This document shows, one piece after another, positions 28,674-34,372 of a DNA stretch of 48,672 nt. Both the position numbers and the translations under genes were made by a program. This stretch comes from Coleofasciculaceae cyanobacterium RL_1_1 (GTDB lineage Bacteria; Cyanobacteriota; Cyanobacteriia; Cyanobacteriales; Geitlerinemataceae). The stretch's first letter is position 1. Every line of letters begins with the position of its first letter. The stretch spans positions 1 to 48,672 of the forward strand of contig JAAUPN010000003.1 in the NCBI GenBank assembly GCA_012033105.1, read 5' to 3'. Under the pieces are notes generated by a model that saw nothing but the letters and a program-made list of their open reading frames with translations, had not been told where the DNA came from and ran no database searches.

Positions 28674-30235
28674 TTAACGCGCATCCACATTGATCACGGG
28701 CTTGATCGTTGCAACCGTGGTCGTACTTTCAAGACTCGATTGTAAAATCGGCGAGTTAACGACAGCATCATTGGCGATCGTAAACAGTGGATTTGACAAC
28801 ACCCCAGCCAGCGACGTTGCCACCACCGACAACACAAGACCCACCTGGAGCGGACGCATCCCGCGTAAATCCCAGCTCACATCTGGGTAATTCTTCACAG
28901 CCTCAGACATTTCGTGCGGCTCTTTGACCACCATCATCCGCACAACACGAATGTAGTAGTAGATCGAGACCACACTCGTGACCAGACCGAGAATTACGAG
29001 GCCGTAAAGGTTCGCTTGCCAGCCCGCCCAGAAGAGATAGATCTTACCGAAGAAGCCTGCCAGGGGCGGAATGCCGCCAAGCGAGAGCAGACAGAGGCTG
29101 AGACCCAGCGTGATCAGCGGATCTTTTTGGTAGAGACCAGCGTACTCGCTGATGCGATCGGTTCCCGTCCGCAGCGAGAAGAGAATAACGCAGGTGAACC
29201 CACCGAGGTTCATGAATAGGTAAATCAGCAGGTAAAACACCATGCTGGAATAACCGTCGGTGGTTCCAGCCAGAAGACCGATGATCACAAAACCAGCCTG
29301 CGCGATCGAGGAATACGCCAGCATCCGCTTCATACTGGTTTGCGATAGGGCAACAACGTTGCCGAGCAACATACTGAGGATCGCCAGCGCCGTGAAGACA
29401 AAGTGCCATTCGTCGCTAACACTGTAGAACGCGGTGACAAGCAAGCGAATCGCCAGGGCGAAACCCGCTGCTTTCGAGCCGACGGACAGGAAAGCAACCA
29501 CAGGTGTGGGCGATCCTTCGTAAACGCCGGCGTCCATTGGTGGAACGGTACGGCGGAAATTTTGAAGGCGATGCCGGTGATCGTGAACACGAGGGCGAGA
29601 GCGAGACCGAGGGAGGCTTCGCTATCCACCAGAGCAACAGCAATTTTATCGAGCTGGACTTCGCCGCCGGACAAACCGTAGAGCAACGAAACACCGTAGA
29701 GAAACACGGCTGAACTCGATGCGCCGATCAGCAAATATTTCAGTGCGGCTTCGTTCGATCGCGAGTCGCGCTTCATGTAGCCCGTCAGCAAGTAGGACGA
29801 GATACTGAGGGTTTCAAGCGAGACGAAAATCGTCACGAGGTCATTCGCGCTCGACAGGAACATCGCGCCCAGGGTTGCAGAGAGCAAAATGGCGAGAAAT
29901 TCAGCGAGGGACGTGCCGCTTTGCTCCACGTAACGGATCGACATCAGAATCGTCGTCACAGTGGAGAGGGCGATGATACCCCGGAAGACCAGGCCGATCG
30001 GGTCGCTGTTAAACGCGCCGAGAAAGCCGATCGCGTCGCCTGCGGCCTGCCATTGCACGACGATCGCGGCAATGCTAGCGAGGAGACCGCCGATCGCGAT
30101 GTAGGGCGTCCAAGGCACGGATTTACGACCGGCGATCAGGTCGGTGACGAGGACAGCTAGCAGCGTGATGATGACGATCCCCTCCGGCCAGATCGTCCCG
30201 GCGTTTAGCTGGGAAGCGAGATTTGCAACATCCAT
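28674..30235 (-). CDS. ndhB: NAD(P)H-quinone oxidoreductase subunit 2 (NdhB), frameshifted
   Basis: Membrane proton-channel subunit of the photosynthetic NDH-1 complex (cyclic electron flow, respiration, CO2 uptake). Start ATG 30235 ([20 protein letters not shown]). The upstream frame runs through many hydrophobic helices to [10 protein letters not shown] and then loses family character. The downstream frame begins [20 protein letters not shown] and continues to the normal end. The join is at the GCCGGCG around 29526-29532; one inserted base (for example CCG-GAC-GTT) restores [13 protein letters not shown], a conserved NdhB sequence. Repaired length, about 520 residues, is normal. Single-copy ndhB is functionally important, so this is most likely a sequence error. 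Confidence 0.92.
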
Positions 30236-30370
30236 AGGTAAGTTCGGGTCGAGCGGTAATCGGTTTGATGTGAACGAAAGCAAGGAAATTTAAGACCAGT
30301 TCGCGCGATGACGGTCTCGCACATTCCAAATCTTAGCGTTTCGACGGTGACCATTCTGGGGGGTGGGTCT

Positions 30371-30590
30371 CAAGCCCCGGACTTTTAGTCCGCATCTTGG
30401 CTCTATTTTGTTAGAGTATACGAAAGTCGCCGGGGGATACTCGGAGACTCAAAACGAACGTGGAGGGTGCATAAGACTAGCTTGCTAGCAATGCCCGTTG
30501 AAGCGTTAAGCCACAAAGTGGAGCAGCAGCCTAGCCTGTTCGCCTAGCTTTAGAATCCTCGGACTTTAAGTCCGGGGAGCATGTCAATAA
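30371..30590. mobile_element. IS200/IS605-like relic lacking transposase, with possible orphan guide-type RNA
   Basis: Left end: a hairpin CGGACT-TTT-AGTCCG at 30378-30392 preceded by CAAGCCC. Right end: a hairpin at 30558-30577 (CCTCGGACTTTAAGTCCGGGG, stem with the same CGGAC/GTCCG core) followed by AGCATGTCAA. Imperfect subterminal hairpins and a GGGGAG..GTCAA right end are, from memory, the pattern of cyanobacterial IS200/IS605-type elements. No TnpA or full TnpB is present. The 90 bp before the right hairpin still read as a short TnpB-tail-like frame (AMPVEALSHKVEQQPSLFA, stop at 30546-30548), the region that in complete elements overlaps the guide (omega) RNA. Extent is approximate. Confidence 0.55.
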
Positions 30591-30664
30591 CGCGGTGCTA
30601 AGACTTACCGCTGGAACGGCTGTTGAGAGTCGCGTGTCAATAGCGACGCTCAACCACTGTCCAG

Positions 30665-33600
30665 TTAGAAGTGACCATTGATAGCGGGAACGCAGCGTTC
30701 ACACAGGGTGGAATGCTCGTGATTCGTGCCGACTTTATCAGAGTAGTTCCAGCAGCGTTCGCATTTTTCACCATCAGCCGCGACGATCGCCACACCACAG
30801 GTCTCGGTGATTTCGCTGTAGTCCGAGGCGGAAATCGCCTCGGGTGTGGTGACAAGCTCGACCTGTGAACAGATAAACAGGTAGCGCAGTTCATCGACAC
30901 CGTTACCCGTCGAGGCGAACTGTGTTGAGGTCAGCTCGGGTGAGGTTGGCGCGGGAGGGGCAACAGGCTCCGGAGTTGGGGGAATGATCGGTGCTTCGGT
31001 TTGGATGGCCGGTGATTCAGGTTCGATCGCCATGTCTGCGATCGGCTCCGGTTCGGCGACCGAGTCTGTCATCACGGGTTCTTCCGTCTGCGGTAAAGCC
31101 GCGATCGGCTCACTCGCCGCCGTTAGGATCGTTTGAGTCGATCCCAAGAGGCGAGCTTTGTAATCGTTAAATTGCTCGATCGTGCGGCGACGATCGCGGG
31201 CAAACAGCCACTTTTTATAGATAAACCAGCCGCTATAGCTCACCCCGATGAACGATAAGGCGGTCGGCAATAGAAATAGGCCGTTAACCGCACCGAGCAG
31301 ATCGCTACAAATGTGCAAAATGACAAAAATGGCGAAGACCAGACCGAGGTTGATGACCACTTTCTGCGATCGGCTCCAGACCCACACCAAAAATCCAGGC
31401 GCATCGACGATAAGTTGAGCGATCGTCTGGGGGGTAAGGTTGTCCAAGTCAGGAAGGTCGGGGCGATCGACATTCGCTTTCTGAGTCGGAGTGATGGGCG
31501 TAAACGCAAGCGCGACGGTTTCGGGTGCGGGTTCCGGTGCGGGTTCCGGTTCCGGTTCAACCATTGCAACAGTAGCGATCGATTCCGGCTCCGATGCTGA
31601 TACTGAAACCGTATCGGCAATGGGATCAGTTTCCGGCTCAGGAGTTGGGGACGCCTCGATCGCGAGATCCGCCGAAACCTCCGCCGAAACCGTTGAGGCG
31701 GGCGATGATTCTGCCGGATCGGCATCCGACTCGATCGCCTCCCACTGCGGATTCATCGCCGCCAACGCCGCCCGCGCCGCCTCATCTTCGACGTAAAGCA
31801 AGACCTTTGCATCCAGCGACGAGCCGATTTTCTTCTCGGCGCGAGCCTGTTCCATGACCTTATTGACGACCGTGCGATATTCCCGCTTTTTCGCCCAGGA
31901 TGCCGCGAGCGCCTCATCGCGCCACCCCTCCGGACGTGAGATCCAGCCCGCTTGGAAGACCGAATCAAACCCCGTTTCGTAGGGCAGATTTTGCCAAATG
32001 TCTTCGGCCATGTGGCACAGAACCGGCGCGATCGCCCGTGCGAGACTTTCGACGATCATCGCGATCACGGTCTGGCAGCTTCGACGGCGCGGAGCATTGG
32101 GGGTGCTGATGTAGAGCCGATCTTTGGCGATATCGAGATAGAAATTCGAGAGGTCAACGACGCAGAAATTTTGCACCGTTTGGAAAAAGCGGAAAAACTG
32201 ATAGCTCTCGAACGCGTCGGTAATTTCGTCCATCACTTCGCAGGTGCGATGGAGCATGTAGCGATCGAGTTCCGGCAAATCATCGTAGGCGATGGTGTCG
32301 GTAACTGGGTTAAAGTCGTTGATATTGCCGAGCAGGAATCGCGCTGTGTTGCGAATCTTGCGGTATACATCCGACATCTGCTTCAGGATGGTTTGACCCA
32401 GGGGAACATCGGAGGAATAATCCACCGACGAGACCCAAAGGCGCAGCACATCCGCACCGTAGGGCGGCTCTTGCTTTTGGTTTTTGCCCCCTTCGATCAC
32501 GATCGCCGGATCGACCACATTGCCGATCGACTTGCTCATCTTGCGGCCTTTTTCATCCAGCACAAACCCGTGCGTTAGCACCGTTTTGTAAGGCGCATGG
32601 CCTTCGCTGGCGACACTGGTTAGCAGGCTCGACTGGAACCAACCTCGGTGTTGATCCGATCCTTCGAGATAGAGATCCACGGGATAGCCGAGACCCCGCT
32701 CACGCGCCACCGCAGCCCAGGACGATCCCGAGTCAAACCACACATCCATCGTGTCCTGGCCTTTTTCGTAGCGATCGGCCTCAGCCTTGAGTGCGTCGGG
32801 CAGTAAGTCCGCCACGGACAGCTCCCACCAGGCATTCGATCCATGCTCCGCGACGATGCCTTGGATATGGGCGATCGTCTCCGCATTCATCAGCGGCTCA
32901 CCGGTTTCTTTGTCGTAAAACACCGGAATCGGCACGCCCCATGATCGCTGCCGCGAAATGCACCAGTCCGATCGATCACCAACCATCGCCGCAATTCGAT
33001 TCGCACCCTTTTCTGGAATCCAGGTGACATCGGCGATCGCGCTTAACGCCGCATCACGGAACCCTTCGACTGACGCAAACCATTGATCGGTAGCACGGAA
33101 GATGGTCGGCTTTTTCGTCCGCCAATCGTAGGGATATTTGTGTTCGTAAGGCTCTCGCAGCAGCAGCGATTGACTTGCGGCGAGGGCTTCGATGATTTTG
33201 TCGTTGGCGTCAGTGAGAACGTTGAGTCCGGCAAATTCTGCGCCCGCTTCTTCGGTAAAGCGTCCGGCGGCATCTACGGGCGACAGAATCGGCAAGCCGT
33301 AACGTTGACCCACGATGTAGTCATCTTGACCGTGACCTGGAGCGGTATGAACTAAGCCTGTACCTGAATCGGTGGTGACGTAATCACCGCCAATCACGAC
33401 CTCACTTTCACGATCGAAGAGCGGATGTTTGTACTTACAGTGTTCGAGGCGCTCGCCCTTAATCGTGTCAAGTATGGTTAGTTTGGCCTTAAACGTTGTT
33501 TCGAGACGTGGGATGGCATCAGCCGCCACGAGCAGAAACTTACCGGCAGCCGCGTCGAATTCCAGATCCGTTTCAACCACGGCATAGGTCAGTTCGGGAT

Positions 33601-34372
33601 TGACACTAACGGCTAGATTCGCCGGAATCGTCCACGGCGTCGTCGTCCAAATCGCCACCCACAAATCGGGGATGTAATCCTCCAAAATATTAGTCGCTTT
33701 GTCGGACAGGCTCGTGAGCTGAAACGCAGCGTAGATACTGGGCGAAACGTGACCTTCGGGGTATTCCAGTTCGGCTTCAGCTAGAGCCGTGCGCGAGCTT
33801 GGACTCCAGTGGACGGGTTTTCGACCGCGATAGATGTGACCTTTGGTGACCATTGCTCCGAAGACGCCGATCTGCGCGGCTTCGTATTCTGGCGTCAGGG
33901 TCAAGTAAGGATTATCCCAATCGCCCCAAACTCCGTAGCGCTTGAAACTTTCGCGCTGTTCCTCTACGGTTTTGCGGGCAAATTCGGCGGCTTTCGCGCG
34001 TAGGGTTAACGGTGTAAGCTGCTGACGCTCACTTGACTTCATGCTTTGCAGCACTTTGAGTTCGATCGGTAGACCGTGGCAGTCCCAGCCCGGTACATAG
34101 CGAACTTTCCGCCCCTGAAGGATCTGGTAACGGTTAATAATGTCTTTGAGAATTTTATTGAGAGCGTGGCCAATATGCAGCGCACCGTTGGCATAGGGTG
34201 GCCCATCGTGCAGTACGAAGGGTTCACCGCTGCCTGCGGCTTGGGTCTCGTAAATGGCGTGATCAGCCCAAAATTGCTGGAGTTCCGGTTCGCGCACGAC
34301 GGCGTTAGCGCGCATGGAAAACCCCGTTTCGGGCAAATTAACAGTGTCTGAATAGCGTTTTTCTTCGGCCAC
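30665..34372 (-). CDS. ileS: Isoleucyl-tRNA synthetase with internal CAAD membrane domain
   Basis: A 1235-residue class I synthetase charging tRNA-Ile. HIGH is at residues 66-69 ([13 protein letters not shown]) and KMSKS at 611-615. A zinc-binding end follows with cysteines at 1204, 1207, 1224 and 1227. Typical IleRS is about 940-960 residues; the excess sits between roughly 881 and 1150. It consists of a Pro/Glu/Ala-rich linker, a CAAD domain (about 1006-1077: [20 protein letters not shown], a second helix through [20 protein letters not shown], then the basic [16 protein letters not shown]), and another Pro/Glu linker. CAAD is a known cyanobacterial domain that ties some synthetases to thylakoid membranes. 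Here it is inserted upstream of the zinc finger, not at the extreme end. Start ATG 34372. Confidence 0.95.

Follow-up and report, generated by a model that had tools for sequence, protein, structure and literature searches.

The window analysed here is a stretch of 48,672 nt from Coleofasciculaceae cyanobacterium RL_1_1 (contig JAAUPN010000003.1). Between two genes of the minus strand it carries a non-autonomous element of 236 bp (30352-30587, plus strand). Profile matches confirmed the neighbours named in the initial annotation: ileS and a gene for an NDH-1 subunit (NCBIfam NF002701), which had been called ndhB and is termed subunit N in NCBIfam. The NDH-1 subunit gene (28674-30283) consists of two overlapping frames, 29330-30283 and 28674-29537, both matching adjoining parts of NF002701; the split near 29530 is either a frameshift or an assembly error. 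IleRS (30665-34372) contains a cyanobacterial CAAD domain near its C-terminus, which confirms the cyanobacterial host. Within the element itself no ORF of at least 50 aa was found and there is no transposase gene. Its features are listed in Table 1.

Table 1. Features of the element and of its borders (positions of the window; percentages are alignment cells paired among 22 tnpB-less loci).
Feature	Position	Strand	Sequence	Remarks
Target tetranucleotide, first half of the donor joint	30348-30351	+	TGAC	Directly 5' of the element; presumed TAM (transposon-adjacent motif)
Left-end (LE) subterminal hairpin	30378-30392	+	CGGAC-TTTTA-GTCCG	Kept in the copies and in the left ends of C144 and C152; expected TnpA binding site
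Extended -10, promoter-like	30409-30417	+	TGTTAGAGT	TGTTAGAAT in the C117 copy; 8 nt before the scaffold
ωRNA/reRNA scaffold, complete	30426-30587	+		162 nt; covariance model R1, positions 1-162; 181.8 bits by construction and not independent, the window sequence being among the eight seeds
Stem 1	30426-30434 / 30440-30448	+		87.5%; corresponds to ISDra2 stem 1 (PMC10097598)
Pseudoknot	30436-30438 (stem-1 loop) / 30583-30585	+	GAU with GUC	
Stem 2	30457-30460 / 30504-30507	+	AACG/CGTT	98.9%; encloses stems 3a and 3b
Stem 3a	30465-30470 / 30491-30496	+		80.6%
Stem 3b	30475-30480 / 30485-30489	+		99.1%
Right-end (RE) hairpin	30556-30578	+	TCCTCGGAC-TTTAA-GTCCGGGGA, then GCATGTCAA	Also stem 4 of the ωRNA; expected TnpA binding site
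Stem 4 (helix 5)	30556-30564 / 30570-30578	+		Identical with the RE hairpin
Right cleavage site	30583-30587	+	GTCAA	Kept in all copies; GUC is the 3' strand of the pseudoknot
Predicted guide	30588-30603	+	TAACGCGGTGCTAAGA	First 16 nt of the right flank, outside the element

Copies, insertion sites and partner elements

The borders were determined by alignment of six copies with unrelated flanks. Apart from the window copy, a BLAST search of the region retrieved five near-full copies in the same genome (contigs C117, C225, C321, C343 and C288; 90-97% identity, E 6e-87 to 4e-110), and a seventh copy is present in a sister genome (G001:C68, 94%). Since five near-full copies of such identity lie in unrelated surroundings, the hairpins are not a chance finding. 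The initial annotation had placed the element at 30371-30590 and described two subterminal hairpins with a common CGGAC/GTCCG stem and a right end of the form ending in GTCAA. These hairpins exist and are kept among the copies, and the element is indeed located there; only its extent had to be redrawn to the borders given by the copy alignment. TGAC precedes five of the six copies in the own genome and the copy in the sister genome (6/7 in total), and the C343 copy has TTAC instead. Stem 4 shows scattered changes in the copies on C288 and C321. Two scraps in the own genome (C86 and C335) consist of the ends without the full scaffold; a pair of ends can thus persist without it.

In two sister genomes of the same genus, G001 and G002, the orthologous ndhB/ileS interval is without the element; its sequence has diverged too far for the joint to be read there. 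As the insertion is absent from the sister genomes, a recruited host function of the window copy was rejected. The joint can be read for the C117 copy, whose empty site in G001 is ...TTGTCCCCCTTGAC / AGCCAGGGTTTGATAAACTTTTAT (the slash marks the border) compared with TTGAC / element...GTCAA / AGCCAGGGTTTGATAAACTTTTAT in the own genome. The empty site is thus TTGAC / AGCCAGGG, a clean joint without target duplication. The would-be guide of this copy matches the empty site in G001 at 24/24 positions, adjoining the TAM-like TTGAC. IS200/IS605 peel-and-paste transposition is recognised by insertion 3' of a fixed target with no duplication (PMC8612924), and the exact C117 joint shows this pattern. 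The element is an intact, multi-copy, recently inserted MITE; the term "relic", by which it was first described, is not borne out by such a family, whose window site is empty in two sister genomes.

A second right-end hairpin ending in GTCAA was seen 24 nt to the right of the C117 MITE (L031, about 790-895). It splits the C117 flank relative to G001, which suggests another very short insertion.

The initial annotation had tied its reading to related IS605 or TnpB sequences elsewhere in the genome, and a search for elements with the same ends found them. Contig C144 contains a full element with LE, a divergent intact tnpA, an intact tnpB and RE. Its ends are 86% (LE) and 87% (RE) identical to those of the MITE, making it the autonomous partner with matching ends. 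The tnpA encodes 137 aa (PF01797; NF033573, Y1 HUH transposase), and the tnpB matches PF12323, PF01385, PF07282 and NF040570. The nearest natural relative of this TnpB with a solved structure is ISDra2 TnpB (PDB 8h1j and 8bf8, E 6e-60). By reading, the RuvC-type Asp/Glu/Asp motifs and the zinc ribbon are kept, and the protein looks like a nuclease. A second tnpB of the C144 type runs off the end of contig C152 (residues 57-343) and continues from the beginning of C320 (residues 341-432); a contig break of the assembly has apparently divided a single element. The last 136 nt of the MITE are 87% identical to the C320 RE, and similar to that of C144.

Guide-RNA scaffold and its conservation

A covariance model, R1, was built from eight seeds, mainly tnpB-less loci: two MITE copies, the right ends of C144 and C320, C236, C108, C242 and a fragment of C91. 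Matches were obtained in 37 of 59 relatives and in 168 of 245 genomes of the order, and in other genomes the model picks out the 3' termini of dozens of tnpB genes. Typically the first 80-125 nt of such a match overlap the last ~80-125 nt of the tnpB ORF, hence R1 describes the TnpB ωRNA/reRNA of these cyanobacteria. R1 covers the right part of the window element up to its last base, so the initial annotation was right that a region overlapping the TnpB guide RNA is kept and the tnpB gene is missing.

Together with their flanks, 111 R1 matches were read. A TnpB protein match was found just upstream in 56, although a few of these are short matches to the scaffold's own frame, and L067 and L116 are really tnpB-less. 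Another 48 are without tnpB and have at least 300 nt of upstream sequence, and seven are too near a contig end. About half of these related guide-RNA loci therefore occur without tnpB; tnpB-less loci with a complete fold are found in many genomes, some with a leader. Searched against Rfam 15, the window element gave no match at the gathering threshold or at E ≤ 0.1. The tnpB-linked RNA of C144 (L022) also has no Rfam match, so Rfam seems to lack this form of guide RNA; nor is a TnpB ωRNA defined by matching an Rfam family. An IStron was rejected, as no Rfam intron match was obtained in the window element or in the longer class II loci scanned. An IscB ωRNA was rejected as well: there was no HEARO match, the partner is TnpB and the RNA lies at the tnpB 3' end.

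For covariation, 22 tnpB-less loci of several families were aligned using MAFFT, without fitting the alignment to the structure. The fold is kept among them: 88.2% of the cells pair compared with 72.7% after shuffling, both-sided changes occur in 21 of 32 pairs, and the covariation score is 0.461 compared with 0.196 for shuffled alignments (0/500) and at most 0.107 with partners slid. Much of this covariation may have arisen while the ancestral loci were still tnpB-linked and have been inherited since. The pseudoknot is paired in 130/135 tnpB-less and 133/138 tnpB-linked cells (263/273 overall), and no slid arrangement exceeds 67%. L038 and L071 have UUC at the end and GGA in the loop, which keeps the pairing. 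Thermodynamic folding of single sequences did not reach significance (z between -0.7 and -1.5, and +1.0 for C242), since wobble pairs and a pseudoknot are part of the native fold; comparative evidence took its place.

Two details concern the origin of the MITE. The U-G form of the pseudoknot (GAU) is uncommon, being limited to the MITE copies, C236 and its G001 counterpart, L062 and, by reading, C144 and C320; this shared form ties the MITE to the C144 type of TnpB. Stem 1 of the MITE resembles the tails of another TnpB type (V-A-G-G-H-S-E-T) and not that of C144. The MITE may therefore be a chimera, with only a putative fit to the TnpB of C144.

All seven MITE copies have AACG/CGTT in stem 2, compared with GACG/CGTC in the tnpB-linked C320 relative. 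This paired change is present in 13/55 tnpB-less and 0/56 tnpB-linked loci (Fisher p 5e-5, a value which overstates independence, since seven of the 13 are the MITE copies and three more come from G017). Read in the frame of related TnpB tails (VAGGHSETxNGRG), the change would replace Gly by Glu; the frame of the MITE has a stop within stem 3b. This fits an RNA kept for its fold after loss of the protein.

Promoter-like sequence, guide and related loci

A standard σ70 two-hexamer scan of the window element found nothing, including no -35 motif, and a terminator scan of the window was likewise negative. The promoter argument therefore rests on the extended -10 across families. Many of the tnpB-less loci have such a motif behind the LE hairpin. 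In 20 tnpB-less elements whose LE hairpin could be recognised, the 40 nt following it were scanned; the anchors were hand-picked and a few of the elements are related. The best extended -10 scores added up to 115.5, compared with 80.0 (sd 5.4) for shuffled sequences (0/300). The -10 of the window copy (TAGAGT) is weaker than those of the other copies. Given its distance from the scaffold, a transcript would start at about the first scaffold base.

The last ~16 nt of the ISDra2 reRNA originate from the flank (PMC8612924), and the guide was positioned according to this layout. The initial annotation had expected it to start just beyond the right end, which is correct (30588). The predicted target of the window guide is TGAC plus TAACGCGGTGCTAAGA. 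The joined 14-mer TGAC plus TAACGCGGTG has no exact occurrence in the own genome, and near matches there are not above control.

Guides were also compared at orthologous sites. G000:C288:2083-2320 (L035) and G001:C253:4501-4657 (L103) harbour different guide-RNA-only elements upstream of the same gene. Their right borders fall on the same nucleotide and their guides are nearly the same, which may reflect repeated targeting, replacement at the right end or coincidence. The tnpB-less guide RNAs L024 (G000:C236) and L097 (G001:C224), as well as L028 (G000:C108) and L098 (G001:C130), occupy the same place with the same guide in both sister genomes, which makes them older shared insertions.

A larger tnpB-less class was noted (L064, L067, L072, L159-L164, L169, L171, L172, L175 and others). 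Here the LE hairpin is followed about 4 nt behind by an extended -10 (TGnTATAAT), a leader of ~155-180 nt, the ωRNA and GTCAA. The leader shows paired double changes and occurs in three subtypes with a common GGGCAATGG...TCCAACCC. The class has no ORF, the members scanned gave no relevant Rfam match, and a search of the leader (class II) for TnpA remnants gave no significant match. Leader and ωRNA together are possibly a new composite RNA.

Interpretation and relation to known systems

The element is probably a self-promoted, guide-RNA-only MITE or PATE of the IS200/IS605 type, mobilised by TnpA and retained by TnpB, both acting in trans, with the order left end, putative promoter, complete TnpB guide RNA, right end. 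Starting from the observed anatomy, copy number, insertion behind TGAC without duplication, partner element and covarying scaffold, we infer the following cycle. TnpA of the C144 element would excise and insert the MITE in trans at the LE and RE hairpins. RNA polymerase would start at the extended -10 and read through the scaffold into the flank, yielding an ωRNA whose guide begins with the first flanking base. A TnpB of the C144 type would bind this ωRNA in trans and, after excision, cut the empty donor joint (TGAC plus flank) on the sister chromosome, upon which repair from the intact copy would restore the MITE. It would use two proteins encoded elsewhere and carry only its own address label. 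The proposal of the initial annotation, an orphan guide RNA that could serve a TnpB from another place in the genome, is thus supported as a likely reading.

A rival account is a passive MITE, mobilised by TnpA in trans, in which the scaffold is left over between the ends of young copies and gives no working ωRNA. The copies are young (90-97% identical), the two ends suffice for IS200/IS605 transposition, stem 4 carries the scattered changes of C288 and C321, and transcription of the scaffold is a prediction. Such an account nevertheless appears less likely, as several unrelated tnpB-less families across the order have the same full scaffold, complete with pseudoknot and covariation, the paired stem-2 change of the MITE lineage is absent from all sampled tnpB-linked loci, and the promoter motif has a set place after the LE hairpin.

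That the helices were selected as single-stranded DNA hairpins for TnpA, and not as RNA, would agree with the role of the LE and RE hairpins as TnpA sites in this family and with stem 4 coinciding with the RE hairpin. Stems 1-3 and the pseudoknot, however, reach as far as 160 nt inward from the right end, and they have counterparts in the TnpB-bound ISDra2 ωRNA (PMC10097598). In tnpB-linked loci they are situated inside the tnpB ORF and on its 3' side, and selection as DNA is very improbable. The ndhB/ileS copy might also be a domesticated guide RNA that leads a TnpB-like protein to a target in the host or in a phage, given that guide-directed regulators derived from TnpB exist (TldR) and that the RNA would run antisense into ileS. 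Hardly any weight is given to this idea: the insertion is specific to its own genome, the guide is plain flank behind an intact TGAC, no second site of TAM plus guide exceeds control in the own genome, and the C144 TnpB looks like a nuclease.

If the guide-RNA-only reading is right, a MITE can be a parasite not only of a transposase but also of an RNA-guided nuclease, and ends plus a self-promoted guide RNA suffice for copying back into every site left. TnpB acting in trans for many elements, and guide RNAs selected apart from the nuclease gene, become testable. Any path leading from TnpB to CRISPR-type systems, in which guide loci stand apart, would need the latter step too. R1 provides a means to annotate guide RNAs which have no Rfam match here. 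Tentatively, and with some doubt, the view may be widened: cyanobacteria would carry widespread guide-RNA-only transposons, parasites of TnpA and TnpB encoded elsewhere, with one nuclease serving many addresses. This class would comprise a promoter after the LE hairpin, the TnpB guide RNA and the right end; the window element would be its minimal form, and the larger form would add a structured leader of ~160 nt which is not in Rfam.

The ISDra2 ωRNA consists of stem 1, a pseudoknot between the stem-1 loop and nt -5 to -3, and stems 2, 3a/3b and 4 (PMC10097598). The window scaffold has all these parts, stems 1-4 and the pseudoknot, in the same order. The ISDra2 scaffold is formed by the tnpB 3' end and the RE, its guide is taken from the flank, and its target adjoins a 5' TAM which is identical with the insertion site (PMC8612924, PMC10097598); the window element has the corresponding scaffold and is predicted to have the same kind of guide and target. 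Cutting of the donor joint followed by repair was proposed in cis for ISDra2 (PMC8612924) and has been called retention (PMC11870625). In ISDra2 the RNA is encoded in cis with tnpB, whereas the window element has no tnpB; the TAM is TTGAT in ISDra2 and would be (T)TGAC here.

Stand-alone IscB ωRNAs and ωRNA-bearing PATEs of Geobacillus IS605 elements were reportedly described by Altae-Tran in 2021 and Meers in 2023. They are said to share with the window element guide RNAs located away from the nuclease and one TnpA/TnpB set for many elements; IscB, unlike the system discussed here, reportedly has a 5' guide and is another protein.

PATE-like elements are already known, and the window element is a variant and not a new kind. 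In Halanaerobium hydrogeniformans, a PATE-like IS605 element of 271 nt, present in a single copy and described as ends-only, combines a left-end hairpin with the final 58 nt of tnpB and the complete 160-nt right end (PMC7290912). That description predates the discovery of the TnpB guide RNA. Like the window element it is short and has no ORF, and by position it would also hold the reRNA. The window element differs from it in several ways: it belongs to a multi-copy family for which an empty site has been mapped, it has a promoter motif, its full scaffold is supported by a model, and further independent families exist in other genomes.
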